Virus record (IMG/VR): IMGVR_UViG_3300045996_002224
Span: 1 to 40,402 of that record
Length of the DNA: 40,402 bases
Source: a virus
Direction: 5' to 3' (one strand)
The notes below the pieces were generated by a model, which worked only from the letters and a program-made list of their open reading frames with translations, had not been told where the DNA came from and ran no database searches. Positions 13,221 to 40,402 of the stretch are shown here, piece after piece. Within the stretch, counting starts at the first letter, position 1; each line of letters starts with the position of its first letter. The position numbers were made by a program, and so were the translations under genes.

Positions 13221-13295
13221 CCTCGAAACCCCGCCGCACTGGCCTTTCCCGGATCGATGCGGCGGACTTCCGCAAATAGTATGAGGCAATTCGCC

Positions 13296-16319: not shown

Positions 16320-16930
16320 TCCCGATAGCCTTCCTGTCGATTGAGTGAATACCGCATAGTACACCATACCTGCTGGAATTGATGGGGAGCGTCCCCGCCC
16401 GCCGCGAAGCGTCGTCCATCCCCGGAAAGATCAGCAACGCCGGGTGCCTGTCGAGGTCCCTTCAAGAGGGACCGACCAACCCGCCAGCGTTCGAGGTCAA
16501 TGGGTCATCGCAGGGACCCAAAATCTTCTTCTGATTTTGGGTGGATGATCCCATTGACTCCCACAAGTGAAAGACACCCTTGTCTTCCCCCTGTCCGATC
16601 CCATCGGACGGGGGATGCCTAAATGGCGAATGTTCTGCCTTCCTTGCTTTCCCGTTCACTTGCCGAACGAGGACGGCGGGAAACACCGTCCCCCGCCGAA
16701 CCCCGTCAAGCGTCAGGCTCCGCCAAACCCTGACCGGCGAACGTTCGCGCTCAATGCGTGGAGCCATCTCGCAGATCGCAGAACGCCACACTGCAAATGT
16801 GGAGCAATACAGCCAGCGATGCAACGCGCGGCCATCGTTCGGCATCGGCGGTTTCCGGATTGGTCTCCGCGTCAGCCTGATAAATGCCGACCCTTTTCTG
16901 TCTGCCGTCCCTGTCATTGTCATTATCCGA

Positions 16931-21288: not shown

Positions 21289-21755
21289 CAGTTGAGCCTC
21301 GTCCCGTCAGTATTATCGGCAGCGGCGGACGGTGCGTAGACCTGTGACCATGCGTCAAGCGATGGAGCGTCCGGAGGCACTTCGACCACGTACTTAGTCG
21401 TAACCTCGCCGTCGTGCTTGACCTCGTGTTTCGTGGTCAAGTGGCACCATGCCTGCGCGAGGAAAATCGTGGCTTTGATGCTGCCGTTCTGCATGTGCTT
21501 GAATAGATGCTGCATGACTGCTGTCTGAGACTTCATCTTGCCGCGCTCAAACGCTTCTCGAAACTCCGGTTCCTTCATGCGGTTCGCGACGGTCTTCATG
21601 TCAACGCCGACAATACCCGCGATGTGACGCCACGAGAGCGCGGCCATTCCGGCCTTTTCAAACATATCGGGGGTTAGCTCGATCTTGCGGCTGCTTTTGC
21701 GCTTCTCTGGAGCAGTATCCTCCGTTGTGTCATCTACTTCCACAGTAACCCCCAT
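21288..21755 (-). CDS. terS: Terminase small subunit-like protein
   Basis: A 155-aa protein overlapping the terL start by one base. ELTPDMFEKAGMAALSWRHIAGIVGVDMKTVANRMKE is a helix-turn-helix of the type found at the N-terminus of small terminases (GxVDMKTVANR). It is followed by helical KSQTAVMQHLFKHMQNGSIKATIFLAQAW, which closely matches the oligomerisation region of that family. ATG at 21755; the ribosome site is weak, and a TTG three codons earlier is possible. The protein should recognise the packaging start site (pac/cos) and recruit TerL. Confidence 0.78.
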   Translation of the reverse strand: MGVTVEVDDTTEDTAPEKRKSSRKIELTPDMFEKAGMAALSWRHIAGIVGVDMKTVANRMKEPEFREAFERGKMKSQTAVMQHLFKHMQNGSIKATIFLAQAWCHLTTKHEVKHDGEVTTKYVVEVPPDAPSLDAWSQVYAPSAAADNTDGTRLN

Positions 21756-21880
21756 CCAATACAAAACAGCAGTAGCATTAAATTGTATATTTGCACGCTG
21801 TCACCCGTTTATGCAAGGTGCGGGGTCTTCGCCATGCTGGCTGCGGCGGCATGCAGGAAAAGAGCGGCATGTGCTCAATG

Positions 21881-21945: not shown

Positions 21946-22374
21946 CTAACGCTGCTTTTGGAAGTGCCATCGGAGAGCTGCGCTTAGAACTTCGCTTTTG
22001 TTTCCATTCGGGAGTTGCTGGACGAAATCTGTGAACCGTTCGGCAATCTCTGGCCTGATCCAAATACTGACGCTGACCACTTTGTCAGGCTTGGCCTTTG
22101 ACAGGATGGTGGGAATTACGGTTCCCGCATCGACTGCGTCCATATAGCCGGTGAGGATTTCCCCGTAAATTTTGCCGCGTTTGATGCCGCTCTTGGTTCG
22201 TCGGCCTTCCTGAATAGCTCTGTCTTTTGATTCAGCGACGACAAGCTCAACAAGATCGGCGGGAATGCCGCTGAAGCGTTTCAGGGTTTCGTCGTAAGTC
22301 TCATCCCCCTCCGTTACTGTTCGGCTCGACGCCATTCCCCTGCCTTTCCATTCGTCAATGGTCGCGAAAATCAT
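21946..22374 (-). CDS. Ribbon-helix-helix regulator at the end of the trb operon
   Basis: A 142-aa protein. Start at MIFATIDEW, preceded by AGGAG 9 bases upstream and overlapping the end of trbI by 20 bases. The C-terminus (VVSVSIWIRPEIAERFTDFVQQLPNGNKSEVLSAALRWHF) is a beta strand followed by two helices, the ribbon-helix-helix pattern with NKSEVLSAAL as the second helix. The N-terminal domain is helical and of unknown function. RHH proteins bind short tandem sites as dimers, so this is a good candidate for the factor acting at the TGTAACA pairs. Its position as last gene of one of the regulated operons would give feedback control. Confidence 0.65.
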   Translation of the reverse strand: MIFATIDEWKGRGMASSRTVTEGDETYDETLKRFSGIPADLVELVVAESKDRAIQEGRRTKSGIKRGKIYGEILTGYMDAVDAGTVIPTILSKAKPDKVVSVSIWIRPEIAERFTDFVQQLPNGNKSEVLSAALRWHFQKQR

Positions 22375-23308
22375 CACCCGCAACTCCTGCACGAAGGATT
22401 AGCAACATATCTGTTCTTTCGTCCACTTGAATCACGCTTGGACGCTGCCATAGGTCGCGCGCGATCTGGTCGATTGGTCTTCCCGCGTTCTCACCGATAA
22501 TCGGACCGATTAAGGAACCTCCTGACGTGAGTGCTGCCTGAGCAAGGTCGATGCCGATTGACGCCGTCACGAGGAGCGCGGTTGACAAGAAGTTGGACTC
22601 GACATCACCTGGAACGCCTGCGGCGCCGGTTGGGTCACCAGCAACGCCGTTCAATGTTACCGTGTCGTCGGCGGGGTATGGTCTGACAATTTCCAGGTTA
22701 GTGATTGGAACGCGCTTCTCTCCCTTTGTTGTTGATCCTCCGTAATCTGCCACGAGGTCGGACCCGGCCGGAAGGACAAGGCATGTGCCGCTTGTATCCC
22801 ACACATCGGCCGTGATCTTGGCCTTGAGGATGCCTGCCTTTTCAGTGACGACGCGCGTTAGACTGCGGACGGGAATGAAGGCTCCAGGAGGCAGCCAGCA
22901 ATCGCTTCCGGATTTTTTGAAATCTGACCTGTTGGCTTTCTTTGTCATCGCCGCTTCGATGATTTGCGGGTCAGCCTTGTGTCCGCCTGCGCCTTCCTTC
23001 AGGCCGCGCTCGAAAAAATCGTTCCTGGGAGCGCGCTGAGGCTGCGTTGACACTGTTGACCTTGCTCGCCGCTCCTCTTTTTTTGCTGGTTCCTCAGTTT
23101 GCTTGGGAAGGGTTTCGGCGACCTTCTCTTCGACATATCCAGCGGTCTGACCGACTCCTGTAATGCGGGGAACCGCGCCGGTTGCCTGCGCCTCCTCCTT
23201 GCCGCCGCTCATTGCGTAAGCGGTCAGGCCAGCGGCGGCGAGTCCGCCGATAGCCACAACCCGCCACACCCTTGCACCACCCGCCATGCTCTCCGGGGTA
23301 CGCGCCAT
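22355..23308 (-). CDS. trbI: TrbI/VirB10-like conjugation channel protein
   Basis: A 317-aa protein spanning the inner membrane. Short cytoplasmic N-terminus, transmembrane segment about residues 14-33, then a Pro/Lys/Glu-rich periplasmic stretch. The C-terminal beta-barrel domain has CWLPPGAFIPVRSLTRVVTEKAG, SGTCLVLPAGSDL and IARDLWQRPSVIQVDERTDMLLIL, as in VirB10/TrbI. It links inner- and outer-membrane rings of the type IV secretion channel. Shorter than most TrbI proteins (usually more than 400 aa), with the loss in the linker. GGAG precedes the start. It occupies the canonical last place of the trb order. Confidence 0.85.
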   Translation of the reverse strand: MARTPESMAGGARVWRVVAIGGLAAAGLTAYAMSGGKEEAQATGAVPRITGVGQTAGYVEEKVAETLPKQTEEPAKKEERRARSTVSTQPQRAPRNDFFERGLKEGAGGHKADPQIIEAAMTKKANRSDFKKSGSDCWLPPGAFIPVRSLTRVVTEKAGILKAKITADVWDTSGTCLVLPAGSDLVADYGGSTTKGEKRVPITNLEIVRPYPADDTVTLNGVAGDPTGAAGVPGDVESNFLSTALLVTASIGIDLAQAALTSGGSLIGPIIGENAGRPIDQIARDLWQRPSVIQVDERTDMLLILRAGVAGDDFRDH

Positions 23309-23368
23309 GTCACAAGCTCCATTTTGAAAAGGCGTTGCTAATTTTGTGATTTGACAGTCAGGGGTGGG

Positions 23369-23542
23369 TCACATCCACGAGAAGAGGATGTCCAAGAGGC
23401 CGTCCAAGAAGATGTCAAATGGAGTGTCATACCTCAGCACAAGGAGCTGTACCCCCGCGCCACTTTCTTGCGTGGAGATGGAGACGAGAAGTGCTGCAAC
23501 GACGAAGGCCGACACCGCAAATACGCTCGTGAAAAATCTCAT
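23369..23542 (-). CDS. Small membrane protein in the trbH position
   Basis: A 57-aa protein with AGGAGG before an ATG that overlaps the trbG stop (ATGA). One hydrophobic span (residues about 5-23) is followed by a short polar part and a hydrophobic, Asp-containing end (FDIFLDGLLDILFSWM). It lies between trbG and trbI, where other P-type systems carry trbH, a small lipoprotein. No lipobox is present here. Probably an accessory component of the channel. Confidence 0.65.
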   Translation of the reverse strand: MRFFTSVFAVSAFVVAALLVSISTQESGAGVQLLVLRYDTPFDIFLDGLLDILFSWM

Positions 23543-24558
23543 TGCTGTTTTCCTCCTGCCTGATGTTTGCGTTTGATGGAGACTTCTTCGGCGCCGATGC
23601 TGAGAAGCAATTCGTCATGAAGGCCGGTTGCGATGTACGTCGAGTTGTAACGGCGGTAATCGATTGGGTGCCGAACGCCGTCAACGACCCGTTGCAGTGA
23701 AGGAGACTGGTAGGGTCCGAGGATTCCCGGCTTGAAATTGATAACGGTCATCTGGCCATCATCACACACAGGCGGCTGTTGATCGTGAGTCGGGACGGGA
23801 CGCCAAGCGGCGGTTGACCCGGTCATGTCGTAGGCGCAATTACGCTCTCTAGGGTGCATGCCTGTGGTGCGGTCCCGATTGTCTCTCTTCCGCACTTCGG
23901 GGACGATTCCGTTGATCCTGTTGACCTCGTCTTCGGGGTAGCGCCACATCACTTCCCGATGCTTGTATTTGCGCTGCTTCGAGCCATAGACACGGATATC
24001 AAGAGCGTATTTCCGGCCGGGACCGTTCTCGTCCCCGACCGTCATGATCCATCCATCATATCCCTTGTCTTGCGGGATTCCCTTCGGGAAGAGAGACACA
24101 CAGACGCGCTTGCCTTCTTCGTCCTCGTACCAATGCGTATCGTTCCCGACCCATTCCTGTTTTCCGGCGACGATGGTCTCCACATGAACCTCCCCCGGCT
24201 TGAGGCACACCAGAGTTGTGTCACCAATGGCGACATTGACGCGGTAAGGCTTGTCTGGCTGATACCAGTACCGACACGTCCCGCCGCTGAAGCAACTGAG
24301 GGTCGGGAGGACGATCCCTGCTGTCCGAGACGATGCAACGGCATTCATCGACTCTTTCTCGGTCGGCCGCTCGTCGCTCATCATGGGTACTGGAGCGGAT
24401 TGCGTCGTTGATTCCGGAATGACGACATCGCTCAAGCTAACCGGCGCGCGCGGTTGATGTTGATGTTCCACAGAAACAGAAGGCTCTGGAGGCTGCGTCG
24501 CGCAACCAGCCAGAGCCAGTAGTGCCGCCACTGCGGCGAGGGTGGTTTGTGTTCTCAT
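23539..24558 (-). CDS. trbG: TrbG/VirB9-like protein with lipoprotein signal
   Basis: A 339-aa outer-membrane ring protein. Start at MRTQTTLAAV. Residues 1-20 are a lipoprotein signal with LALAGC, so Cys20 should be lipidated. The middle domain (GGTCRYWYQPDKPYRVNVAIGDTTLVCLKPGEV ... YDGWIMTV ... RKYALDIRVYG) is the VirB9/TrbG beta domain. The C-terminus (RVVDGVRHPIDYRRYNSTYIATGLHDELLLSIG) is the cap region that binds VirB10. VirB9 is usually not itself a lipoprotein, so a VirB7-like anchoring role may be merged here. No Shine-Dalgarno is visible; the -10 element lies only 7 bases before the ATG, so the mRNA may be leaderless. Confidence 0.8.
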   Translation of the reverse strand: MRTQTTLAAVAALLALAGCATQPPEPSVSVEHQHQPRAPVSLSDVVIPESTTQSAPVPMMSDERPTEKESMNAVASSRTAGIVLPTLSCFSGGTCRYWYQPDKPYRVNVAIGDTTLVCLKPGEVHVETIVAGKQEWVGNDTHWYEDEEGKRVCVSLFPKGIPQDKGYDGWIMTVGDENGPGRKYALDIRVYGSKQRKYKHREVMWRYPEDEVNRINGIVPEVRKRDNRDRTTGMHPRERNCAYDMTGSTAAWRPVPTHDQQPPVCDDGQMTVINFKPGILGPYQSPSLQRVVDGVRHPIDYRRYNSTYIATGLHDELLLSIGAEEVSIKRKHQAGGKQQ

Positions 24559-24565
24559 GCCGCCA

Positions 24566-24594
24566 CTTGTAACACACTTTATAACAAGTGGCAA
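24566..24594 (-). promoter_or_regulatory. trbG promoter with TGTAACA/TATAACA operator
   Basis: On the minus strand TTGCCA (24594-24589), a 17-base spacer and TACAAG (24571-24566) form a promoter. The half-sites TGTAACA (24568-24574) and TATAACA (24580-24586) lie inside it, 12 bp apart as at the other operators. The distance to the start codon suggests a leaderless transcript. Confidence 0.6.
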
Positions 24595-24611
24595 CAGGAG
24601 ACGGCTGCGGA

Positions 24612-25343
24612 TTAGCGGCGGTTCATATCCCGCTGTTTGAAACTGACGGTCGGCTCGGTCAAAATCGTGATGTTGACGCCGTCCAGCGCACCCTCGCGAG
24701 GAGGTCCGGATGTGATCGTGATGTTCTGCATTAGCGTTTCATTCTTGACGATCTTGCCGTTATGCAGTGTCTTCTCTTGCCATTGCAGCGTATAGAGCCG
24801 GGAGCCTTCAGGCATGCCTGGAACCTCCTGCGCAGCAACAACGACGCCTGTAACGTCCCGGCGATACCCTTTGTCCGCGTCCACGTCAGCCGCCTGAAGC
24901 GCGTCCCAGGCGGTGATAGCGTCCGACCCCGCCAGCTTTGCGCGCGCGTTCGCACGGTTGAATTCGTTGACCGCCTTCTCACCAGAAATCCAGCGGCTCC
25001 AGGTGACGAACCACTGCAACGTTTCCATCTCCCGACCGACATTGACATCCATCGTGTTTCTGATCGCGATGACTCTATCCATCCCATCGGGACCGCGCTC
25101 CACATACCGGACAGGCTGCATCTGCGCTACTTTGACAAGCTCAAGGTTGGTCGCGGTCGATATGACGGCAGAATAGGCTCCAAGGCCGACGCCGATTACG
25201 GCGAGAATTGCGAAAAGCAGCATGAAAAATTTCCATCGCTTCTCGCGGCGGAAATCCCGCTCAACCGCCTTGGTGTAAATCGCATACGGTGATTTTGCGT
25301 CGGGAGGAGTGTCGGCGGGAATGTGTGCGGGTGTATTCAACAT
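24612..25343 (-). CDS. trbF: TrbF/VirB8-like inner-membrane protein
   Basis: A 243-aa bitopic protein with AGGAG before the ATG. Cytoplasmic N-terminus (SPYAIYTKAVERDFRREKRWK), one membrane span at about 39-60, then a periplasmic VirB8-type domain with PVRYVERGPDGMDRVIAI, the LQWFVTWSRWISG helix, and strands containing RLYTLQWQEKTLH and VNITILTEPTVSF. VirB8 nucleates the inner-membrane complex of the secretion channel. The order TrbL-TrbF-TrbG is the standard P-type one. Confidence 0.85.
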   Translation of the reverse strand: MLNTPAHIPADTPPDAKSPYAIYTKAVERDFRREKRWKFFMLLFAILAVIGVGLGAYSAVISTATNLELVKVAQMQPVRYVERGPDGMDRVIAIRNTMDVNVGREMETLQWFVTWSRWISGEKAVNEFNRANARAKLAGSDAITAWDALQAADVDADKGYRRDVTGVVVAAQEVPGMPEGSRLYTLQWQEKTLHNGKIVKNETLMQNITITSGPPREGALDGVNITILTEPTVSFKQRDMNRR

Positions 25344-25358
25344 GAGTGTGTCTCCTGA

Positions 25359-26480
25359 TTATTGGGAGGTATCGGAAGGCTGGCTGCCACGGGACCACCC
25401 GCCACGGTATCGACCTTGGGTGGACGTGGACTGACCGCCTTTACCGGCTTGACCGGACTGGCTGGAACCTGACGAGGATGAGGATGAGGAGGAACCGGCA
25501 CTCCAGGCGTTGCGCGCCATCGCGACACCTGCACTTGCCATCCCTGACGCTACTGACGCCACAGACGACACACCCCGCGCGATGCTGCCGCTCATGCCTC
25601 CCTGCGCCGTCATTTGAGACAACGCCTGCATGCCGTTCGCTGCACCGATCCTCATGGCTCGAAGCGCCATGGCTCCATCCAATATCGGGCCGGAATTGAT
25701 CAATGCCGCGGCTGCACTTGGTGCTTTGATGATAGCAACGAGAAGTCCGGCGGAAAGAGCAACCAGACCGAAAGCGCCGCCAAGACCAGTAATCTTTGCC
25801 TTCTCAAACATCAACAAGGCGACCGTGGATAGAGCGGAAAGCAGGGATAAGGCCAGCATGCGCAAGCCGACCGAAGCAATGTACCCAACGCCTTTCGTAG
25901 CTATGAAGCTGGTCTTGCTGAAGGCGGCAAATGGAAGAGTAACAAATGCCGCGATCGAAAGGAGTAGATACTCGATCTGCGCAAAGAAGATGTGCAGAGC
26001 CATCACCAGAAAGGCAAGTATGATCATGACTATGGCAAACAGGTGGAAAACGAATTCGAAAAAATGGAGGAAGATCGCCACGGGTCCGAGAAACTGCCTT
26101 GCCATAGTCATCATCGGGACAGCCGCCTGGAAGCCAAATAGCGCAATGGCTCCAGGGTCGTTGAGGTTGAATTGCATATCGGGTGCGACAATGGTCCCCG
26201 TGTTCGCCATCGCTTGAATTACCCTGTCCGCAGCGGTCGGGTAGATATCGATCATCCACCCGACGACCGCGAAGACGAGGAGCATGCGAGCAAAATCCGG
26301 ATGTGGAAACCGGCGCGTAAGCAGCATGACACCCATGACCATGCAAAACGTGAGGCTCTTTACCCAAAAAAAGAGGCTTTCCACTGTCGGCATCAGTGCC
26401 GACATCGCACCGTCACCAGCGCTATTGATGGCGTCCAGAGCGGAGGACAGAACCCCAGCATCCCAGATAGGAACCGGCAT
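25359..26480 (-). CDS. trbL: TrbL/VirB6-like polytopic channel protein
   Basis: A 373-aa polytopic inner-membrane protein; ATG 26480 overlaps the stop of the preceding gene by one base and has GGGGG upstream. About six hydrophobic spans lie between residues 35 and 270. A periplasmic loop with PTAADRVIQAMANTGTIV precedes the TrbL core. The C-terminal 50 residues are a Ser/Gly/Gln-rich hydrophilic tail with a run of Ser, as in many TrbL proteins. VirB6/TrbL helps move DNA across the inner membrane. Confidence 0.85.
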   Translation of the reverse strand: MPVPIWDAGVLSSALDAINSAGDGAMSALMPTVESLFFWVKSLTFCMVMGVMLLTRRFPHPDFARMLLVFAVVGWMIDIYPTAADRVIQAMANTGTIVAPDMQFNLNDPGAIALFGFQAAVPMMTMARQFLGPVAIFLHFFEFVFHLFAIVMIILAFLVMALHIFFAQIEYLLLSIAAFVTLPFAAFSKTSFIATKGVGYIASVGLRMLALSLLSALSTVALLMFEKAKITGLGGAFGLVALSAGLLVAIIKAPSAAAALINSGPILDGAMALRAMRIGAANGMQALSQMTAQGGMSGSIARGVSSVASVASGMASAGVAMARNAWSAGSSSSSSSSGSSQSGQAGKGGQSTSTQGRYRGGWSRGSQPSDTSQ

Positions 26481-26701
26481 CACTGACCCCCTTGGCGCAG
26501 CCGGCGAAGTGTCTCGATGTCTTCAATGGAGCCACGCGTCAGAACAGCGGACTCGACAAGATCGAGGATAACGTTCGGAAACAGCGTCACGGCCAAAGCG
26601 CACGCGAACGACAGAAGAAGCGCCGTGATGACCGTGAACTTGAGTAGCTGAACAACACCCAGGTTTTGAAACAAATACATCGCTTGAAAGAGATTACCCA
26701 A
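26480..26701 (-). CDS. Small membrane protein in the trbK position
   Basis: A 73-aa protein started at TTG 26701, where AGGAGG lies 8 bases upstream. One membrane span (about 20-43) is followed by an acidic-basic cytoplasmic tail ending LRRLRQGGQ. It occupies the place between trbJ and trbL held by trbK (entry exclusion) in P-type plasmids. It lacks the lipoprotein signal of RP4 TrbK, so entry exclusion is only a possibility. Confidence 0.6.
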   Translation of the reverse strand: MGNLFQAMYLFQNLGVVQLLKFTVITALLLSFACALAVTLFPNVILDLVESAVLTRGSIEDIETLRRLRQGGQ

Positions 26702-26713
26702 GTTCCGTACCTC

Positions 26714-28489
26714 CTAGTTTTTGCCTACATCGCGAATCATGAGGTCCCACGTGGCATCCGCCGCTTTTCTGGCTTCCCGCTCAGAGTCGATGACTGATTC
26801 CGCCACCCGGTTGTGTGCCGCCTGCATCAAAGCGGTTTTGGCAGACAGTTGAGCCATGACGATGCCGATCTGAGCGTTGATGTCCGCAACACAAGTTTGG
26901 CCTGGACACTCTCCTCGCTCCCCCTCCAGTGCTTCGAGTTGACCGGAAAGATCTTCGATGTCCTCTGCTAACTTGGCAGAGAGGCGCTTGCTTTCGACCG
27001 ATGTGGCGCGGGAGAGATTGTCCTGTGCATCGCGGAGATTGCCGAGGTCTTCAATGGTTTCGAATACCGGATTTTCCGGATACGCCGCTTCGTACTCGTC
27101 CCGGACGGCGGGTTCCTCCCAGGTGATCGCCTCACTCTCGCCGCCGAGAAGCGCAAGGAAGTCCTGCCAGCTGTCGAGAAGCCAATCGACCAACGAGAAC
27201 GGTGAGTGCGCCAGCATGTTGGCTTGGTGCGTGGTCTGCGCTATCGCTTCCTTCGTTTGAATTACCGCCTCAACCGCCGTCTTGATCGCCTGGATCTCGA
27301 CCGCGCCGGGAAAACTCTCGATGATGGGACAACCGGAAAGTTCTTTCGCAGTATCACCTGCCTCGCCTCCAACGGATGCCGCCGCGCCAATGGGACCGCC
27401 AGCAACAAGCGCGACTCCCGCATCCATGAAGCTATCGAACAACCCGCCGCCGTCCGAGCATCCTCCGCCGCCGCCGTCGCTGCCGCCGCCGAGTAGCCCG
27501 CCGATAGCTTTTCCGATACCACCGATGAAACCGAGGGTCGGAGCGCCTGTCGGACTGATAATCCGCACGTTTGCACTTTGGTTGTTGGTTCCGTTGGGGT
27601 CACCGCATTCGCGTCCTGAAATTTTGTTTCCAGAGATGCGGTTGTTTCGGGTCCCTTTCGCGTTCATGGATATCGCACATCCGGAACCGCTCGCGATCAG
27701 GTTTCCTTCAATGAGATTGTTAAAGGCAGTTAGTCCGCTTTTGTTTGCCGCTGCCGCTTTACCGGAAGACGGCGCAGACATGTCGATGCCATTCACTTCG
27801 CATCCGGAGAACCGATTTCCTTTGATGGTATTGCCTGAGCTACCATTCTTGACCATGGCACAAGCCCAGCCATTCGTCCGGACTTCGTTGCCTTGCATAA
27901 CGCTATTGGTGACTTGGACCCAATCGACGCCGCCGTCTCCATTTCTGTTTCCCGCCGAACCCGCGCGGCCGCCGCCACCCGCCATAACGATCCGGTTACC
28001 AGAAACATCAACCCTGTCCGCCTGAAAGAACTTAATACCGTCAAGGCGCGCGTATTCGGTCGTGTTGTTTGTAAACTGAATGCCGCTCACCATGCGACCG
28101 GGACTGCCGCCGATCTTGACCCCGTCGCCTCCGCGACTGGTCAGACGAAACCCGTCTATAGCGACGTTAGACTGGCCATAACTTCCGATTGCCGGTTGGT
28201 TGTGTCCTGTCGCGACAATGTGAGCGCCGCCTTTCGTGACCGACTCAATGCGTATGTTGTTCTTCGTGACATCAAACGGCGCATAGGTTCCCGGCGCAAC
28301 GCGTATCGTGCTGCCGGGACCGGCGCGATTGATGGCGCTTTGAATGCTCTGTCCCGGTCCAACCTCAATCGTCTCCCCGTAACCTTGCGCGACAGGCAGG
28401 AGAACGGTTGCCGACACAGACGCCATGAGCGCCGCACGGAGCCATTTTGAAAAGCCTTGCTGATTTGCTTTATTCCGCTGCCTGTGCAT
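26714..28489 (-). CDS. trbJ: TrbJ/VirB5-like minor pilus protein fused to an N-terminal parallel beta-helix
   Basis: A 591-aa exported protein, about twice the usual TrbJ length. Start at MHRQRNKANQ, with GGGAG 9 bases upstream and a 20-base overlap with the end of trbE. Signal peptide about 1-38. Residues about 38-315 are a right-handed parallel beta-helix of the pectate-lyase/NosD type: opening IEVGPGQSIQSAINRAGPGSTIRVAPGTY, then repeated N-x-I-x-G-N-x-I turns (NNTIEGN, NRISGNKISG, NTIKGNRFSG, DVSGNRIVM). A Gly/Ser linker (about 320-365) leads to a coiled-coil TrbJ-like part (about 385-591). VirB5/TrbJ sits at the tip of the pilus; a tailspike-like beta-helix there could bind or cleave surface glycans. 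Position between trbE and trbL supports TrbJ identity. Confidence 0.75.
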   Translation of the reverse strand: MHRQRNKANQQGFSKWLRAALMASVSATVLLPVAQGYGETIEVGPGQSIQSAINRAGPGSTIRVAPGTYAPFDVTKNNIRIESVTKGGAHIVATGHNQPAIGSYGQSNVAIDGFRLTSRGGDGVKIGGSPGRMVSGIQFTNNTTEYARLDGIKFFQADRVDVSGNRIVMAGGGGRAGSAGNRNGDGGVDWVQVTNSVMQGNEVRTNGWACAMVKNGSSGNTIKGNRFSGCEVNGIDMSAPSSGKAAAANKSGLTAFNNLIEGNLIASGSGCAISMNAKGTRNNRISGNKISGRECGDPNGTNNQSANVRIISPTGAPTLGFIGGIGKAIGGLLGGGSDGGGGGCSDGGGLFDSFMDAGVALVAGGPIGAAASVGGEAGDTAKELSGCPIIESFPGAVEIQAIKTAVEAVIQTKEAIAQTTHQANMLAHSPFSLVDWLLDSWQDFLALLGGESEAITWEEPAVRDEYEAAYPENPVFETIEDLGNLRDAQDNLSRATSVESKRLSAKLAEDIEDLSGQLEALEGERGECPGQTCVADINAQIGIVMAQLSAKTALMQAAHNRVAESVIDSEREARKAADATWDLMIRDVGKN

Positions 28490-30992
28490 ACTTTTCCACT
28501 CCCGTTCTTGCGCGAAGATCCGCCGCTTCGTCGTACAGTCCCTTGTGCTCCAGCCATGCCACGGGAAAATCGCCGCGACCGACTGTCCGGTAAATCTCCA
28601 TGGCCGCAGACTTCTCATCGGCGCCGCATCCGCAGATAGCCTTTTCCAGGTCCGTCAGTTTGATCTGGCAAACGCGCGACCCCTTAAGCGTCTTGTAGAG
28701 CAACCAGCCGGGATCGCCGCGCCTGCCTGCTTCGCCGATGCGTTGCCGTTCCGTCGGCGTGACGCCAAAATGCTCAGTCAGGATCGTGGAGTCCGGAGCG
28801 GTAGTGTCACCAAAGTACAGACTCGCTTTTGCCGTCTTCAAAATCGGGAAGATCGAGCTTCCATACAGGTCATCAACCCTGTGAGCAGCGAGGACAAGGC
28901 AAACCCTGCGCTTGGGACCACGTCGCCGTATTTCGTCAATTTCCTCATGAATGGCAGCCATTTGGCGGAACTCGTCCACCAGGAAGAGAGTCGGCCTCGC
29001 ATCGTCAATCAGGTCGTAAATGCGCCGGAACAGCGCCATGAGGACTATGGCGGTATCCTTCCCCTTTCCGGCATCGCCTGCGTTCTTCTTCTCTCCGTCA
29101 GTCAATTTAGTCAGGTCGATTGTGATCCAATCCGCGTCCTGAATTCTGTCGTGGTTCGCGTCGAGCAGGTGACCAAGGGTTGAGCCTTTCGTGTAGTGGG
29201 ACCGGAGAGCGTTGCGAAGGCGAGTGCTTTGGATGACATCGGCCAGGCCGCTTAATGTGCGCTCGCTGACCGGAGAGCGAGCCAGGATATCCAAAGCATC
29301 TTCCGTCAGGCTCGACAGGCGGTCTTCCGGCATGGACGCGTCCGGCATGCCGAGACGCGTCCATATTTCGGACATGAAGTGCTTGCACCATCGCTTGCCG
29401 TCCTCCTCGTCCACCCGCGCAAGCGGTTGAAGCGCCATGTCCCCGGACTCGAAGCTGATGAATTCCCCTCCCGCCATCCACGTGGCAATCATGGATGTTG
29501 AAAGTCTGCTGTCAGCATCAACCCAAATGACGCGGGGACGGTCGGCGGGGTTGGTGGCTTCGATGCGCGCAAGCCACTGATGACCCATGTGCGCTTCGGC
29601 CGTGGACTTGCCGACGCGAGGAGGTCCGGCGAGAATGCCGAATCCATCTTTGCCTTCGAACAGGTCAAGATTGACTCCTGCTCCACCCGGAGAGTCGAGC
29701 CGCATCAGTGCCTCATATCCGAGATGTCGGTTGGGTTCCGCGCCAGTCCATGGGGACGTTAGGAGGATCATGTCAGACATGACTGTACTCGGTAGAGGCA
29801 CCCTTCGAGCGTTCGCGCGGGTGTTGCCGTACAGGCTCCCGAGATAGGCGAGTTCGCTATTCCAGCCTTCATCTTTGATGGTGAACTTCTTGATGGTCTT
29901 TTGAATGATCCCGTAGGCATCGTTTGCGGCTTTTTGGGACCGACCCCAGGCGACTCCGGTGACGCTCAAGAAGCCGGTGACAACTCCCGGCTCAACCGCC
30001 TCTATGCGCGCCGCTTCCGCATCCATGGCCTTCATGACGCCGACAGGATCGTTCCGCAGATCGCCAAGACCCGCCACGCGATCAGCGTATGACCGCCAAT
30101 CGAGCGCGGTTTCGTCGTGGGTTCGGAATATCCACTTGAGGACGCTTTCGGCCTTGGCTTCAGACAGGCATTCGAAACGATAGTTCAGGCGGAATTCGGT
30201 ATCCGCCTCCTGTAACACAGCGAAGATGCTTGGGTCACTGACTGTCGGGTACCCGCTGACGCCAAAGACCCGGACGAAATACTCCTCATCAGGATGGCCG
30301 TTCGTTCTCCACGTTGGCTTGCCGGGAATCATGCCGAGAGTGCCGACAGCGTACTTCACGGGAAACCCAGGCAGGGTTGGAGCCTGGACGTACTCGCAAC
30401 CTTGCGGGTCTATCGCGTTGTGTATGGCGGTCACGACTTCATCGTCATTGAGCAGGCGCGCGTATCCGAGCGTGGAATTGAGATGGCGTGCCAAGGTCGA
30501 AACCAACTCGCGAAATGGTTCTACGTGCTCAGCGTAGTATTTCTGTGTCTGCTCTTCCGGAGACCTGAAGAAAAACCGGTGCAGACGCCTAGCCTTGACT
30601 GACGGAGGTGTGTAGGTGATGCCGAGACGCGTCCGAAGCCTGTACTGATTGCCGCGAATGTTCATGCGCTGCCGCCGCTTGGCGTCGAGCAGTGCGGATA
30701 CCGGATACGCGTCACTCCCATCAGGATAACCGGAGGTCAAACGCTTCTCGACTTCGCAATGCAGTACGTAATTGCCGACCCCGAGAGGGGTCAGCAGGTT
30801 TGCAACGCGTGCGCTGGTGCTGTCTATGTCCTCATCACTGAGGACGGACTGATCTCGTCCGGAATACTCAATGATGGACATCATGGCGTCATCATCGTCT
30901 AAGAGAAGAACTCCAGGAGCGATAAAATGACGATAGGGAAGGTCTGACGACAGGTCGCTGAACCCATCGTCAAGCATGTGGATGCGTGTCAT
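28470..30992 (-). CDS. trbE: TrbE/VirB4-like conjugation ATPase
   Basis: An 840-aa cytoplasmic ATPase, the largest conserved T4SS component. The N-terminal VirB4 domain (residues 1-400) includes RLRTRLGITYTPPSVKARR and the usual long alpha/beta region. The C-terminal motor has Walker A GPPRVGKST near 455-463, Walker B TLFLVDEF near 667, and CLVLAAHRVDDL as sensor strand. It powers pilus assembly and substrate transfer. Its start overlaps the end of trbD (ATGA). It is slightly longer than RP4 TrbE and intact. Confidence 0.92.
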   Translation of the reverse strand: MTRIHMLDDGFSDLSSDLPYRHFIAPGVLLLDDDDAMMSIIEYSGRDQSVLSDEDIDSTSARVANLLTPLGVGNYVLHCEVEKRLTSGYPDGSDAYPVSALLDAKRRQRMNIRGNQYRLRTRLGITYTPPSVKARRLHRFFFRSPEEQTQKYYAEHVEPFRELVSTLARHLNSTLGYARLLNDDEVVTAIHNAIDPQGCEYVQAPTLPGFPVKYAVGTLGMIPGKPTWRTNGHPDEEYFVRVFGVSGYPTVSDPSIFAVLQEADTEFRLNYRFECLSEAKAESVLKWIFRTHDETALDWRSYADRVAGLGDLRNDPVGVMKAMDAEAARIEAVEPGVVTGFLSVTGVAWGRSQKAANDAYGIIQKTIKKFTIKDEGWNSELAYLGSLYGNTRANARRVPLPSTVMSDMILLTSPWTGAEPNRHLGYEALMRLDSPGGAGVNLDLFEGKDGFGILAGPPRVGKSTAEAHMGHQWLARIEATNPADRPRVIWVDADSRLSTSMIATWMAGGEFISFESGDMALQPLARVDEEDGKRWCKHFMSEIWTRLGMPDASMPEDRLSSLTEDALDILARSPVSERTLSGLADVIQSTRLRNALRSHYTKGSTLGHLLDANHDRIQDADWITIDLTKLTDGEKKNAGDAGKGKDTAIVLMALFRRIYDLIDDARPTLFLVDEFRQMAAIHEEIDEIRRRGPKRRVCLVLAAHRVDDLYGSSIFPILKTAKASLYFGDTTAPDSTILTEHFGVTPTERQRIGEAGRRGDPGWLLYKTLKGSRVCQIKLTDLEKAICGCGADEKSAAMEIYRTVGRGDFPVAWLEHKGLYDEAADLRARTGVEKYAQAAE

Positions 30993-31306
30993 CGTGCTGC
31001 CTTATATTTGCGAAGACGGAGAGAGCGTCCGCGAGTCCGAGCCACACGGCGGAAAAATGATATGACGCGCTGCGTTCCGATCTCGCACCAGAACGCGTCA
31101 TGCATAGTCGCAAGCCACATCAAAACGAGCACAAGCAGGAAGACCGAAACGACGACGAGGAGAGTGATCCCAGCGACATGCCAAAACCAGAAGGCCAGAA
31201 CAAAGGCCAGAAAGGCGGGAAAAAACGGGAACAGTCCCGCGACCAGCTTTGGCCTGACCTGAGTTTGCCGGATTGGCCGTCCGGCGCGGACTGGCGAACG
31301 CTCCAT
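30989..31306 (-). CDS. trbD: TrbD/VirB3-like inner-membrane protein
   Basis: A 105-aa protein, 3 bases after trbC and overlapping trbE. Basic N-terminus with TQVRPKLVAGLFPFFPAF leading into two adjacent hydrophobic segments (about 24-44 and 47-66), then a basic cytoplasmic tail. This matches VirB3/TrbD in size and topology and in its place directly before the VirB4 homologue, with which it interacts. Confidence 0.8.
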   Translation of the reverse strand: MERSPVRAGRPIRQTQVRPKLVAGLFPFFPAFLAFVLAFWFWHVAGITLLVVVSVFLLVLVLMWLATMHDAFWCEIGTQRVISFFRRVARTRGRSLRLRKYKAAR

Positions 31307-31309
31307 TCG

Positions 31310-31612
31310 TCAGGACCCGAAAGCGATAATTGCTTCCCGCTGACCCCAGAGGATCGCGGCGGCGACCACACCGGCAACGGCAACGATGCCGACTTTGATG
31401 GACATGAAAACGGCGACGGCGACAGCAAGGAGCAGGCCACCGGTTACCGCGGCGGGGAACAGGTCGGCTTCAAACGTATCGATCCAGGAAAAAAATTGCT
31501 CGCCGACTGGAGCCAGGATGCTTTCCTGTGCAACGGCGGGGTCGGCCGCGAGCCAGAGAGCAACGGCGAGCAAGGCGCAGGCGACGGCCTGACTCTTGAT
31601 GGATGCCTTCAT
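31310..31612 (-). CDS. trbC: TrbC/VirB2-like major pilin
   Basis: A 100-aa pre-pilin. Start at MKASIKSQAV, with GGAG upstream. Signal peptide about 1-28 with cleavage near AVAQE. The mature part has two hydrophobic helices (about 53-72 and 75-92) separated by a short loop (SIKVG), the VirB2/TrbC hairpin. It is the first gene of its transcription unit and lies 52 bases behind the operator cluster, as expected for a pilin needed in large amounts. No TraF-type cyclising peptidase gene is seen in the window. Confidence 0.82.
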   Translation of the reverse strand: MKASIKSQAVACALLAVALWLAADPAVAQESILAPVGEQFFSWIDTFEADLFPAAVTGGLLLAVAVAVFMSIKVGIVAVAGVVAAAILWGQREAIIAFGS

Positions 31613-31663
31613 GTGGCGTGTCTCCAAAGTTTGGTGATGGATGGGTACAGCCGGACACTAACA

Positions 31664-31708
31664 TGTTATAAATCGTGTAACAAGTTGTTTGTCATACGTC
31701 ATGTTACA
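31664..31708 (-). promoter_or_regulatory. trbC operon promoter with two operator pairs
   Basis: TGTTATA (31664-31670) plus TGTAACA (31676-31682), and TGTCATA (31690-31696) plus TGTTACA (31702-31708). Each pair has the same 12-bp spacing. On the minus strand ATGACA, a 17-base spacer and TTTATA form a plausible promoter overlapping both pairs. This is the only site with two pairs. Confidence 0.6.
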
Positions 31709-31711
31709 TGC

Positions 31712-32641
31712 TTAGGAAATGGCGAATTCCCCTTTCTTGTACCCGTCAACGGTCCCGATTTTTTCCACCCAGCGGCGGTCTGTCCGGTAATCGCGCGTCA
31801 CGTGAACAACGACATCGATGTATTCAGCGATCTTTCGCCTTCCCGCCTTATCCGCCTTGACGAGGTCGGCAACTCGCATAGGAGCCTGCTTCGCGCTCCT
31901 CGCGTGAACCGTTGCCAGGATTCTGGAGACGGTGTTGAATCCATCGACCATGTACTTTGCCGCCTGCTCCGTCCTGACCTCCCCGACAACCAGTGTCTCG
32001 GTATCTTTTCGGAGAGAGTCGGAGACACAGTCCCCGAGGGTTACTGGATATTCCCCGTCTTCATCAGCCTCCATGGACAAGGCGTGTTTTCCGGGTATCG
32101 TGAATTCCGTTGGGTCCTGAGCGAGGATCGTCCGACCTTCCCGGATAGCATCCTCATAGCACAGCGCGCGGAGCAGGGTCGTCTTGCCACTCCCAGGCGC
32201 GCCGGAGACGAGTATGTTCATTCCTGCATCGATGTACCCGCGAAGCCGGTCAGACGCCTCCTGGGTCAGCATTTCCCATTTAACCAGCATCGCCAGGGTG
32301 ACCGTCCCGCGCGCTGGCTGCCGAACCGAAAAACAGGGTCCTGACGTGATCGGTGGAAAGTTTGCGTGGAGCCTTTCCCCCGACGGCAGGCGAGCATTCA
32401 GGCGCGGCTTGTGATGCCCGAACTCCTTCCCGTTCCAGCTTGCCAGCCGCGCGAGATAGTTGACCACGTCTCCGGCCAGGACGGTTCCATGGTCGGTCAT
32501 GACCCCGCGTTTCCGGGTGATGCGCAGGCAGTTTCCATCCCTGTCGGGAGGCTGGACGTGGAAGTCCGTAACGGCGGGGTCGGACAGGAAGTCCTGAAAG
32601 ATGACGCAGGTCAGGCGGTCGAGAGCGCTCGTGTCTTTCAT
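31712..32641 (-). CDS. trbB: TrbB/VirB11-like secretion ATPase
   Basis: A 309-aa hexameric traffic ATPase. ATG 32641 has GAGGAG 8 bases upstream. The N-terminal domain ends FHVQPPDRDGN...RLNARLPSGERLHANFPPIT. The RecA-like domain has Walker A SGAPGSGKTT (about 146-155), the Asp box AQDPTEF, Walker B-type DTETLVVGEVR and the His box ILATVHARS. It works with TrbE and TraG to drive pilus assembly and DNA passage. The next operon promoter begins right after its stop, so trbB belongs to the traG transcription unit. Confidence 0.9.
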   Translation of the reverse strand: MKDTSALDRLTCVIFQDFLSDPAVTDFHVQPPDRDGNCLRITRKRGVMTDHGTVLAGDVVNYLARLASWNGKEFGHHKPRLNARLPSGERLHANFPPITSGPCFSVRQPARGTVTLAMLVKWEMLTQEASDRLRGYIDAGMNILVSGAPGSGKTTLLRALCYEDAIREGRTILAQDPTEFTIPGKHALSMEADEDGEYPVTLGDCVSDSLRKDTETLVVGEVRTEQAAKYMVDGFNTVSRILATVHARSAKQAPMRVADLVKADKAGRRKIAEYIDVVVHVTRDYRTDRRWVEKIGTVDGYKKGEFAIS

Positions 32642-32643
32642 GG

Positions 32644-32967
32644 TCAAAGCTCCTCAAGGATTTCGCGGCGGTTTTCGTTTATGGCGTCGTCGTCCATGTC
32701 GGGGAACGCCGTCAGCATCATCGCCAGCTGCGTTGCGACTAACGCCTCCACCCTGCCAACCATCTTTTCCAGACGCAGCGGCTTGGCCTTCTGGCGATCG
32801 ATAAATTCGAGACCGGCTTCAAGGACATGAATGACGGCCTGTGTCTTGTGTCGGCAACGCGCGTCCGCTCCCGCCATCAAAACGCGGTCGATAACCCGCT
32901 TTGGAACGCGAACCGACAACGGTACGGTCTCTTCTGTGTCGTCGCCGTTGCAATCGATAGCGGTCAT
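32644..32967 (-). CDS. RHH-like protein between traG and trbB
   Basis: A 107-aa protein overlapping the end of traG (ATGA). Residues 15-60 (VPLSVRVPKRVIDRVLMAGADARCRHKTQAVIHVLEAGLEFI) fit a ribbon-helix-helix DNA-binding domain. The C-terminal half is a long amphipathic helix. It could be a relaxosome accessory protein or a regulator. It is a second candidate, besides the protein at 21946-22374, for binding the TGTAACA sites. Confidence 0.6.
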   Translation of the reverse strand: MTAIDCNGDDTEETVPLSVRVPKRVIDRVLMAGADARCRHKTQAVIHVLEAGLEFIDRQKAKPLRLEKMVGRVEALVATQLAMMLTAFPDMDDDAINENRREILEEL

Positions 32968-34607
32968 TTATTGATCCCCTTCAGCAGGCTTTTCGCTTTG
33001 GATGGCTTCGCTTTGGCAGGTGCTGCGGTTTCGGTTTCGGAATTGCCGTTCTCTTCCTTGGGTGCCGTCTCCTTCCGTTTCTTCGGCTTTGGTGGCGGCG
33101 GCGGCGGGACAGGGATGAACTTTCCAAGCCATGGATTTGAACTGACCGGAGACTTCCAGGCGCGCGACGCCGGTCCGTACAGATCCGGATAGCGGAGGAA
33201 GGCGAAGACACGTTGAGCGTTGATCGTCCCACCGAAACCAAAGATGAAAAGCTCATCCGGGTCCATATCCATCAAGTCGCTTGCCGGTTTCTCCGGCCTG
33301 CGCTCAATGCGGGTTGACTCGGTAATGGTCGCTGGTTCGTACCAGACGCGGCGCGTCTTCGATTGGGATGCAACGACCTCGTCACGGTCCCCGATCATGC
33401 GCGACATCAAGTCGGCCTCGAAAACGGACATAGGCGCGAACGCCACCCATGCAGCGCTGGACGCCATGACGCGCTGATACTGCTCCAAAACGCTTTCGAA
33501 TGTCTGCGCCAGGAACAACGGACGGACGTGGTACTCGCGAAGGTATTTGACCCAACTGCTTACTTCCTCGATCTTGAATTCTAGGAACTCGTCGATCCCG
33601 AGCAGCACGTCCCAACAGCGCGGCATACCGCGAACGCTCTTGATGTCCTCCGTCAACTGGTCAACGATCTGTGTCCAGATTAGGCCATAGACCCGGCGCA
33701 ACCGGCGCGCATCGGATGGCATGGTCGAGATGATGACGGTTAGCGGTTTCTCGCCGCTGACAAGGTCCGATGGGTCAAAATCGCTAACCGCCGTCTGCGT
33801 CGCCAAGACATCGTCGGCGAAGTCCGCGAGCATGGCCGACGCCGTTGTGTAGATGGCTTTGCGGTAGGCTGCCGACTTGTCGTCCATCTCCGCAAAGTCT
33901 TCCTCCTCGTCTTCTTCGGGTTCCCATACCTCGCTGATCGACCAAAGCTCTTGAGCCGCTTCGACGGCAAGCGTGTCGATCCCATCGCGCATCATTTCCT
34001 TGGACCCGGCGTCGCCGCGCAACATGTGACGGCGGACGCCTGCCAAGCACTTCTCGGAATCCGGCGCGGCGGTCAGGAGATAGGCGATGACGCCGCTCAT
34101 GTACGAAAACGTCGCGTTGATCCAGTGCGCAGACTTGCCGCTGCCGTTGGCTTCGCGCTCCGTTACCTTGGCCGCGATCAACTGGATATCGGCAACGAAC
34201 CTGTCACCCTCGCGAACCCATTGCATCGGGTTGACGCGACCGGCACCGCGCTTGGTGATATCGACAATGATGACATCCTGTCCCATCGCCTCGCGCGCCT
34301 TGCCGACCTCGTCGCACATCACGCGTTTGTAGTCCCACAGCACGGCGGAATGCGTGTAGCCGTACACCTGATCGAACAGCGTCGCGTACAGAAGCTGAGT
34401 CTTTCCCGACCCCATCGGTCCGCTTGCGATGACGGGGTTGCAGGTCCGATCGGTCAGCGGAACGCCTCCCCGCTGCGATACCGGCTTGCCGTTGCTGTCA
34501 CGCTTGACGGTGCCTCCATCCATCCCAACGATGACGCCGGGTCGGCGGTCGAGAGGCGATGACGCCTCTCCCATTCCGAGCATCCAGAGCTTTGAAATTA
34601 CGCTCAA
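32964..34607 (-). CDS. traG: TraG/VirD4-like coupling ATPase lacking its membrane domain
   Basis: A 547-aa type IV coupling protein. TTG 34607 is chosen because it overlaps the preceding stop (TTGA), follows GGGGGAGG, and sequence further upstream is simply the other frame of the neighbouring genes. Walker A GPMGSGKTQ lies at about 64-72, DYKR and the VIIVDITKRGAGRVNPMQW segment follow, Walker B LLGIDEFLEF is near 334, and the LAQTFE sensor and a GD-DEVVASQSKTRR region come after. The C-terminus is Lys/Pro-rich. Family members start with two membrane spans, which are missing here. The separate 188-aa membrane protein just upstream probably supplies them. Confidence 0.85.
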   Translation of the reverse strand: MSVISKLWMLGMGEASSPLDRRPGVIVGMDGGTVKRDSNGKPVSQRGGVPLTDRTCNPVIASGPMGSGKTQLLYATLFDQVYGYTHSAVLWDYKRVMCDEVGKAREAMGQDVIIVDITKRGAGRVNPMQWVREGDRFVADIQLIAAKVTEREANGSGKSAHWINATFSYMSGVIAYLLTAAPDSEKCLAGVRRHMLRGDAGSKEMMRDGIDTLAVEAAQELWSISEVWEPEEDEEEDFAEMDDKSAAYRKAIYTTASAMLADFADDVLATQTAVSDFDPSDLVSGEKPLTVIISTMPSDARRLRRVYGLIWTQIVDQLTEDIKSVRGMPRCWDVLLGIDEFLEFKIEEVSSWVKYLREYHVRPLFLAQTFESVLEQYQRVMASSAAWVAFAPMSVFEADLMSRMIGDRDEVVASQSKTRRVWYEPATITESTRIERRPEKPASDLMDMDPDELFIFGFGGTINAQRVFAFLRYPDLYGPASRAWKSPVSSNPWLGKFIPVPPPPPPKPKKRKETAPKEENGNSETETAAPAKAKPSKAKSLLKGINK

Positions 34608-35170
34608 CGGAGCCTCCCCCGAGCTTGACGGCTGGACGTGATGCGCGACGCATCCCCGCGCTGCGACATCGCCTGAAACTTCATGGCGCCGACGCCTGCG
34701 ACGACGAGTAGGAGCAGCAGGCAGAGATAGACGGCATAGGTCAGGACCCACACGTCGGCAGGGTGCAAATCGTCGTACCAGAGCAGGAATTGACCGGGAA
34801 GGTAGACCGGCATCGGCAGACCGACATTGAACCCGCCGAGTGCTGGATGATGTCCGAAGAAGACGCCTAGGCCGAAGGTGATCGCCTCTACGAGGACGAG
34901 CCAGCCGATAACCATGCGAGCGATTAGGACTTTCATACTGCGTTGACTCCATATCATTGCTGTGGAAATCCGACGCGACAGCGACGGACTGCAAAACGGT
35001 ATCCGGTCGGTGAACTTGACCGGCCTTCCGTGATAGAGCGGCACGAGTCCGCAGACCGGCGACACGCGATGGACGTAGCGGAGCCACGCGACGCGATTGT
35101 CCTCCAGGCGGAGAGGTTTCCACGCGAAGCAAGGCGTTCCGAACAGGACCGCGACGCCGGTTTTCATCAT
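34604..35170 (-). CDS. Membrane protein, probable split N-terminal domain of TraG
   Basis: A 188-aa protein. Its start overlaps the relaxase stop (TAATG) with GGAGGG upstream. An N-terminal soluble part (1-80) is followed by a span at about 84-104, a periplasmic loop with Pro, Gly and His of some 35 residues, a second span at about 143-163 (VLTYAVYLCLLLLLVVAG) and a short basic tail. Two spans with a small periplasmic loop is exactly the VirD4 N-terminal topology, and the ATPase gene follows with a one-codon overlap. The soluble N-terminal part has no counterpart that I know. Confidence 0.6.
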   Translation of the reverse strand: MMKTGVAVLFGTPCFAWKPLRLEDNRVAWLRYVHRVSPVCGLVPLYHGRPVKFTDRIPFCSPSLSRRISTAMIWSQRSMKVLIARMVIGWLVLVEAITFGLGVFFGHHPALGGFNVGLPMPVYLPGQFLLWYDDLHPADVWVLTYAVYLCLLLLLVVAGVGAMKFQAMSQRGDASRITSSRQARGRLR

Positions 35171-35994
35171 TATCTTTCCCTCCCATCCATGACGGTTTCG
35201 CGCTCACGGCGGCGACGGTTTTCGTCCCTGCCGTCATCCCTGCCGCTGCGATCATCGACCACGTCGCGGGACCGTACCCGCTCACGGTCGCGTTCCCTGT
35301 CGTCGCGCTCGTCGGTCTGGTCCCGACCCTGATCCCGTGCCAGTCGGTTGCGCTCATCTTCAAGGCCGCGAGCGCCACGCCACCCGAGTTGATCCGTTGT
35401 CGCCTCTTCTGCGAACGATCTGATGTGGTGCCGTTCGAAGACCGGATGGAACGTCAAGTCACGGTCATTGACGACGCCACGCACGGCAACATGGACATGC
35501 CAGGAGCCGTCCTTTTGCTCTGCTCCCGCCATCCATCGGAAGTCCGCGCGATCGTCGGCGGGAAGCTGGCGGCGGACATTCTTCATCGTCTCGCGCGTCA
35601 CTTCCTTGACCTGATCGAGCGAAAGCCGATCGCCGTCCTGCGGATTGATCATCCAATGATGGATGAGACGGTCCTTCCCCCATTCATCGGCCAGGCCGTC
35701 TTTGTCCCGTTCATCGAGGTCCCGTTCCCGGTCGAAGACGCGGCCTTCTTTAGCGACGTAGCCGAGCGTTGCCGACACGCTTGAACGGTACGCGCCGCGC
35801 GCCTTGTCATGAGTCTTGACCTTGACCCGCACCTGTCGGGACTGCGCATTCGGCGGTTTGGCTGCGCGGCCTGTGCCGACCTGTTTCGCCTTCCGGACCT
35901 TGTAGGAGCCGCTGCCGCCGCCTTCGGACGGTACAACCGCATGCATATCAATCGGGTCTTCGTCGGCGTTCAGTAGCTTAGTGTATTTCGGCAC
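35170..35994 (-). CDS. Relaxase-like mobilisation protein
   Basis: A 274-aa protein. GTG 35994 is preferred: GAGGG stands 9 bases before it, while the ATG codons at 36030/36027 overlap the promoter -10. The core has SVSATLGYVAKEGR, then HHWMINPQDGDRLSLDQVKEVTRETMKN, then WMAGAEQKDGSWHVHVAVRGV. This recalls the MobA/VirD2 relaxase fold, with the HVHV pair as metal ligands and HHW... as the preceding helix. The C-terminal 70 residues are almost pure Arg/Asp/Glu. The protein is shorter than most relaxases. It should nick oriT and lead DNA into the channel; the catalytic Tyr is not securely identified. Confidence 0.65.
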   Translation of the reverse strand: MPKYTKLLNADEDPIDMHAVVPSEGGGSGSYKVRKAKQVGTGRAAKPPNAQSRQVRVKVKTHDKARGAYRSSVSATLGYVAKEGRVFDRERDLDERDKDGLADEWGKDRLIHHWMINPQDGDRLSLDQVKEVTRETMKNVRRQLPADDRADFRWMAGAEQKDGSWHVHVAVRGVVNDRDLTFHPVFERHHIRSFAEEATTDQLGWRGARGLEDERNRLARDQGRDQTDERDDRERDRERVRSRDVVDDRSGRDDGRDENRRRRERETVMDGRER

Positions 35995-36024
35995 CTGTCG
36001 TTTCCCTCTTCCATCTGACAGCCT

Positions 36025-36055
36025 CATCATGTAACATACTTTGTAACAAGTCAAT
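36025..36055 (-). promoter_or_regulatory. Relaxase operon promoter with TGTAACA-N5-TGTAACA operator
   Basis: Half-sites at 36030-36036 and 36042-36048, a perfect pair. On the minus strand TTGACT, 17 bases and CATGAT form a strong promoter whose spacer is filled by the pair. It drives relaxase, membrane protein, traG, RHH protein and trbB. Confidence 0.72.
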
Positions 36056-36057
36056 GT

Positions 36058-36105
36058 GTATGAAGACGTAAGACAAAACCTCCTCATTTTGAGGAGTTTT
36101 CATAC
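36058..36105. terminator. Nested inverted repeat upstream of the relaxase: terminator or oriT part
   Basis: Inner stem CTCCTCA (36080-36086) with TGAGGAG (36090-36096), flanked by A and T runs. Outer arms GTATGAA (36058-36064) and TTCATAC (36099-36105). The inner hairpin is a good bidirectional terminator. The outer repeat next to a relaxase gene also fits an oriT recognition element; no nick-site consensus was identified. Confidence 0.5.
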
Positions 36106-40132: not shown

Positions 40133-40402
40133 ATGCAGAAAGGCTTTCTGCCTTTGACTTCCATCGGTCGATGATCCTGCTAACCGCTTTGGCGTTCCAT
40201 TCGCAACCGCGCGCCGTCTTGATCCCGCGAGCATTGAGCGCCGCCGCGATGCTGCCTAGCGACATTGCACCGCTCGCCTGGATCTGCTCGATGACAGGAC
40301 CCACCGTCGCCGCCATTTCATCGGCAAGCCGGACCACGGCCTGTCTGGCGTGCTCGGCGGCTGCGGTTGGGTTAGGGTGACCAAGCTTCGTTATCGTCGT
40401 GC
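40131..40402 (-). CDS. Serine recombinase, C-terminal part (right copy)
   Basis: Codes for the last 90 residues of a serine recombinase, including the HTH region ([29 protein letters not shown]), and ends with TAG at 40131. The 5' part lies outside the window or, if the element is circular, continues at position 267. The join keeps the frame: 466 + 272 bases = 246 codons including stop. It differs from the left copy at several residues (for example GAMSLGSI against GVTTLRGI). Confidence 0.85.
   Translation of the reverse strand, partial: TTITKLGHPNPTAAAEHARQAVVRLADEMAATVGPVIEQIQASGAMSLGSIAAALNARGIKTARGCEWNAKAVSRIIDRWKSKAESLSA
40137..40402. repeat. Direct repeat of recombinase 3' end, right copy
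   Basis: Matches 1-266. The final 127 bases are identical to 140-266 and the rest has scattered differences. Confidence 0.85.

Follow-up and report, generated by a model that had tools for sequence, protein, structure and literature searches.

A parallel beta-helix inserted in a TrbJ/VirB5-type minor pilin, found in a conjugation operon of a virus record and on Skermanella plasmids

Apart from TraN-type stabilisation, little is known, to our knowledge, of recipient choice by Gram-negative conjugation systems; capsules are a known obstacle to conjugation. The TrbJ/VirB5 minor pilins (TrbJ of RP4-type systems, TraC of pKM101, TrwJ of R388) have in common with the protein described here the gene slot between trbE and trbL, a signal peptide, long helices and a profile match of 97.5-98%; the present protein differs in an insert of ~280 residues after the signal peptide and in scores far under the curated TrbJ cut-off. 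VirB5 forms a pentamer at the pilus tip that is carried outward from VirB6, and it has been called the main adhesin (PMC12624023, PMC12857230). In VirB5-type adhesins with host specificity, CagL of Helicobacter and the TrwJ variants of Bartonella, the tip protein picks the target cell; their variation lies within the VirB5 fold, whereas the window and Skermanella proteins add a separate domain, in a system with conjugation genes. Capsules were not found as pilus receptors in Klebsiella (PMC10918111), so the principle of a capsule as pilus receptor is unproven elsewhere.

The window, that is, the whole stretch of 40,402 nucleotides that was analysed, contains at 26714-28489 a single open frame of 591 aa, which occupies the trbJ slot; the trb operon around it is complete. 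The first-pass annotation had given this length, interval and trbJ position correctly; the gene lies on the minus strand, and the plus strand of the same interval is packed with stops. The frame overlaps the end of trbE by 20 nt and is the one copy of the fusion in the window's own record. The genes follow one another in the order listed here, which is the one usual for trb operons, with the parts of the fusion set out after it.

35170..36087, minus strand, relaxase-like protein (weak match to phrog_3419, E=4e-4; adjoins traG; no Pfam or NCBIfam match)
32964..35378, minus strand, TraG/VirD4 coupling protein (PF02534, E=2.7e-29; start of the open frame likely too early)
31712..32647, minus strand, TrbB/VirB11 ATPase (TrbB_P, E=1.3e-35)
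31310..31627, minus strand, TrbC/VirB2 pilin (weak match to Pfam TrbC, E=0.018, and position)
30989..31306, minus strand, small membrane protein in the TrbD/VirB3 position (called from position and hydrophobicity only; the TrbD and VirB3 families gave no match)
28470..30992, minus strand, TrbE/VirB4 ATPase, 840 aa (40% identity to Azospirillum TrbE)
26714..28489, minus strand, fusion gene of signal peptide, beta-helix and TrbJ/VirB5-type part (open frame; PF13229, E=2e-13; NF010448, E=1.9e-5)
28379..28489, minus strand, predicted signal peptide, residues 1-37 of the fusion (KW.LR n-region and hydrophobic core; called by eye from the translation, without a predictor)
27560..28378, minus strand, right-handed parallel beta-helix, about residues 38-310 (Pfam, AlphaFold2, Foldseek)
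26714..27535, minus strand, mature TrbJ/VirB5-type part, residues 319-591, with a Gly-rich start and then long helices (match to Azospirillum TrbJ; profile-profile comparison)
26480..26701, minus strand, small membrane protein in the TrbK position, between trbJ and trbL (open frame and position)
25359..26483, minus strand, TrbL/VirB6 (NF010449, E=4e-28)
24612..25343, minus strand, TrbF/VirB8 (without a library match; profile link to Azospirillum TrbF, E=1e-115)
23539..24594, minus strand, TrbG/VirB9 (CagX, E=2.8e-18)
22355..23308, minus strand, TrbI/VirB10 (TrbI, E=4.3e-17)

The TrbJ/VirB5 identity of the C-terminal part is borne out by several measures. The gene lies between trbE and trbL in the window, as in the Skermanella systems L001, L003 and L006, and the NCBIfam TrbJ model NF010448 matches residues 399-574 (E=1.9e-5). 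The scores are below the curated TrbJ cut-offs (NF010448, 23.9 versus 225 bits; PF07996, 14.1 versus 24.7), a shortfall that measures the divergence of the clade, because the helix-less Azospirillum TrbJ falls short too. Azospirillum proteins in the same operon slot are 30% identical to the window TrbJ part (E=6e-26), and the window protein retains, at 344, 387, 528 and 533, the four Cys that occur in the Azospirillum motifs GGGGGC, GCPI and C.GQTC. In profile-profile comparison with canonical TrbJ (hhalign), the window and Azospirillum group reached 97.5% (E=5e-12) and the Skermanella group 98.0% (E=2e-13); reversed and block-shuffled controls reached at most 5.4%, and the helix alone scored 0.

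The helix-less TrbJ of Azospirillum lipoferum (299 aa, same slot) was used as the reference for the anatomy of the protein. Its match to the window protein starts near residue 319 and runs to the C-terminus, and the ~280-residue insert is placed exactly where the signal peptide of the Azospirillum protein ends. This confirms that the beta-helix sits between a signal peptide and a complete mature TrbJ/VirB5-type protein. The first-pass annotation was thus right in calling a C-terminal TrbJ but began it too late, at residue 385, as the whole part from ~319 is TrbJ; most of its "Gly/Ser linker" belongs to mature TrbJ as the native N-terminus, whose GGGGGC and GCPI.ES motifs also occur in the helix-less Azospirillum protein. 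The GC content of the helix part (0.56) is similar to that of the operon (0.57-0.60), so by that measure the helix is not a fresh import.

The beta-helix is a generic fold that serves many purposes. Pfam PF13229 covers residues 97-238 (E=2e-13), and AlphaFold2, run on three aligned sequences, gave stacked short strands at residues 40-170 (pLDDT mostly 72-93) and long helices from residue 396 on; between these strands and about residue 290 confidence was weaker, and hence low for the latter half of the beta-helix. A run on the helix only was no better than the full-length model. Foldseek matches in the PDB were AlgE mannuronan C-5 epimerase, alginate lyases, PL6 lyases, RbmB, the non-enzymatic adhesin PfbA and tailspikes, all with weak scores (best E about 1e-4, TM below 0.5). 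The predicted beta-helix of about 280 residues was recovered by PF13229, AlphaFold2 and Foldseek, the model being confident over residues 40-170 only. The label "pectate-lyase-like" and the suggestion that the domain degrades polysaccharide are not supported, since the nearest folds are those just named and no catalytic set could be assigned. With the alginate lyases, AlgE epimerases, PL6 lyases and RbmB the window helix has the fold in common, at ~9-16% identity, and it differs from them in being tied to a conjugation system. Six residues, D122, K125, D150, K153, D189 and K214 (window numbering), are invariant, at helix-turn spacing, in the five transfer-associated helices described below. 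By eye, no known catalytic motif was matched in the helix, and a PL6-like Lys stands without its Arg partner.

The tailspikes of P22 and Det7 and TSP2 of CBA120 offer another comparison: there too a beta-helix is mounted on a delivery machine and domains are swapped between relatives. The window helix resembles them in fold only. No sequence homology to them was found and no trimerisation part was detected; the helix sits on a type IV secretion pilus, and its glycan role is a prediction. The fusion protein had no match in PHROGs and none among 50,697 phage records. Stand-alone relatives of the helix are encoded in Arenibaculum (L011 7782-10421, L010 7908-9245), one of them with RTX calcium-binding repeats, like AlgE epimerases.

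The fusion recurs on plasmids. A tblastn search found it in the same slot on Skermanella rosea pSR-1, pSR-2 and pSR-5 (641, 631 and 641 aa), and a copy on Skermanella mucosa pSM-1 is cut by an IS5 element. On pSR-7 the parts are split into an ordinary TrbJ of 254 aa (TIGR02780, E=2e-9) and a helix protein of 398 aa that has a signal peptide of its own and whose gene lies beyond trbI, just downstream of the trb genes in the same transfer region. With the window, this makes four intact fusion loci and one split pair, each in frame and each in that same slot; pSR-4, of the same S. rosea strain, carries a Vir-type system with a plain VirB5. Among the genomes, plasmids and viral contigs surveyed, the fusion was found only in Skermanella and the window. 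About 30 TrbJ in 385 alphaproteobacterial genomes outside Skermanella all lacked the helix, as did about 35 VirB5 in 398 Pseudomonadota genomes, and 82 genomes of the family yielded no further fusion; these genome surveys were judged by match extents and by inspection of some long frames. No relatives of the fusion protein, the fusion alignment, the window TrbE, the TrbE alignment, Azospirillum TrbJ or Pandoraea TrbJ turned up in the viral contigs scanned, and scans of genome contigs gave stand-alone helices in Arenibaculum, one short archaeal match and nothing more. None of the long frames at other TrbJ/VirB5 matches (685, 482, 402, 483 and 595 aa, and 904 aa on pSR-4) proved on inspection to be a fusion; they were either spurious frames lying upstream or an adjacent gene.

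All four Skermanella systems also encode a small protein after trbJ (L001 13879-14049, L003 7933-8112, L006 7870-8043, L009 984-1214), in which a tail near the end resembles the C-terminal tail of the system's own TrbJ. The tails vary between systems, the pSR-5 pair being EFMSTLTTCSNCTITRPFLGN with EFMSNLTKCDNCKITKPFLGG. On pSR-5 and pSR-2 the small protein is lipoprotein-like and in the TrbK position. The matching tails possibly reflect a link to entry exclusion or sorting.

The TrbE tree nests the window with helix-less Azospirillum (100/100), puts pSR-2 and pSR-5 together and pSR-1 elsewhere, and requires at least 3 changes of state; several deep branches are weak and the window and pSR-7 branches are long, while the window-Azospirillum grouping is firm. 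BLAST ranking agrees with the tree (window TrbE 40% identical to Azospirillum TrbE), and the AU test rejects a single clade of helix-bearing TrbE systems (p=1.5e-59). In this phylogeny, the fusion is present on three TrbE lineages. Helix identity between pSR-1 and pSR-5 is 73%, against 21-43% for the rest of the transfer proteins that were compared; at the DNA level the two plasmids resemble each other only over residues 8-458 of the fusion gene, its helix-linker part, and in one 116-bp patch. pSR-1 and pSR-7 have the helix alone in common. For pSR-2 versus pSR-5 the relation is reversed, with 67-76% identity in the transfer proteins and 55% in the helix. These comparisons show the helix, as judged from sequence relationships, as a module exchanged between plasmids, with a history of its own.

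The four S. rosea helices, all within one strain, form a clade apart from the stand-alone helices of the genus (98/99). The window helix forms a very long branch in the helix tree, which leaves its relationship to the Skermanella helices uncertain, and one clade of all five transfer-associated helices is not rejected by the AU test (p=0.23). Separate recruitments of different helices may have occurred.

The reading that we prefer, with a probability of about 60%, is that the protein is a TrbJ/VirB5 minor pilin of a conjugative type IV secretion system in which a carbohydrate-interacting beta-helix has been inserted between the signal peptide and the mature pilin, to be displayed at the pilus tip and bind recipient polysaccharide. 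By analogy with VirB5, the TrbJ part would form a pentamer on VirB6 and then be carried out at the pilus tip; since VirB5 is at the tip, a helix that opens the mature protein would be exposed there, and several beta-helices would be displayed together. The helices would bind polysaccharide of the recipient surface or capsule, which they might also cleave or modify, and this may promote or select mating contacts in the way that tailspikes serve phages. In phages, receptor-binding parts are exchanged as modules independently of the machinery that bears them, and it is from the resemblance of the helix exchange to this pattern that we infer the binding of surface polysaccharide. Binding in mating is the likeliest role on these grounds and cleaving a less likely one, with recipient choice probably the most plausible use. 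The occurrence on three unrelated operon lineages, the swapping of the module and the existence of a split version favour a real surface function. More tentatively, conjugative elements may have evolved a counterpart of the tailspike, a swappable polysaccharide-acting tip helix that sets which recipients are mated and that was recruited more than once.

Other explanations account for part of the same evidence. An active polysaccharide lyase or epimerase at the tip, clearing a path through recipient (or donor) exopolysaccharide, would agree with the nearest folds (alginate lyases, RbmB, PL6 lyases, AlgE epimerases), with the six invariant Asp and Lys residues and with the RTX repeats, as in AlgE enzymes, of one helix relative. 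We consider it unlikely: the invariance may stem from the fold or from ligand binding, the known catalytic motifs are not matched and the PL6-like Lys stands without its Arg, and pectate lyase is only one among many beta-helix classes. Action in the donor envelope, where the helix would bind or remodel the donor's periplasmic or capsular polysaccharide for pilus exit or hold the tip complex, is also unlikely. Donor adaptation alone leaves the fusion to a tip subunit on distinct lineages unexplained, and the Vir-type system of pSR-4 in the same strain has a plain VirB5, though the signal peptide and the separate secreted protein of pSR-7, the many related helices encoded in Skermanella genomes and the single clade of four rosea helices in one strain, the pattern that adaptation to the surface of the donor itself would produce, all speak for it. 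The divergence and swapping of the helix would equally fit an arms race with phages, in which the helix is a passive tip shield or spacer that, for example, masks the tip from pilus-specific phages; as the conserved Asp and Lys positions suggest more than a spacer, this is quite improbable. An annotation artefact or a chance gene fusion without function could be suspected from the single copy in the window's own record, and is contradicted by recurrence in four intact loci and a split pair, in frame and in the same slot, which makes it highly improbable.

A tip protein with a discrete, exchangeable and probably sugar-binding domain would make recipient choice directly testable. One cultivable soil strain, with three systems that carry the fusion and a fourth with a separate helix gene, provides ready material. 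The VirB5 tip adhesin is a kind already known; its helix-bearing variant, confirmed in architecture and inferred in function, appears to be new. No description of a TrbJ and beta-helix fusion was found in the open-access PMC literature, consistent with the earlier remark that no case had been described.

In the window, the helix-bearing gene lies on an element that also has phage portal, terminase and head genes. The packaging genes (portal, phrog_145, E=1e-96; head morphogenesis, phrog_241, E=9e-69; large and small terminase; a possible scaffold) lie at 7433-8956, 8986-9576, 15111-16367, 19843-21288 and 21288-21764, and the trb operon at 22355-35378; no tail gene was present among the ORFs searched in the window. 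The record represents either a hybrid of phage and conjugative element or a plasmid that has captured phage genes. A 55-kb phage-plasmid of Rhodovastum atsumiense (L106) has a portal of the same family (DUF4055, 26% identity) together with an annotated baseplate, and no conjugation genes among the 50 kb annotated. The ends of the window, 1-266 and 40137-40402, form a direct repeat of 266 bp with 94% identity, to be explained either by true terminal repeats or by a circular element whose variants were assembled together. The window also encodes, at 12177-12923 and 13257-14111, a queuine tRNA-ribosyltransferase-like protein of phage type (phrog_1279, E=1e-61) and an anti-restriction-like protein (phrog_7245, E=5e-12).
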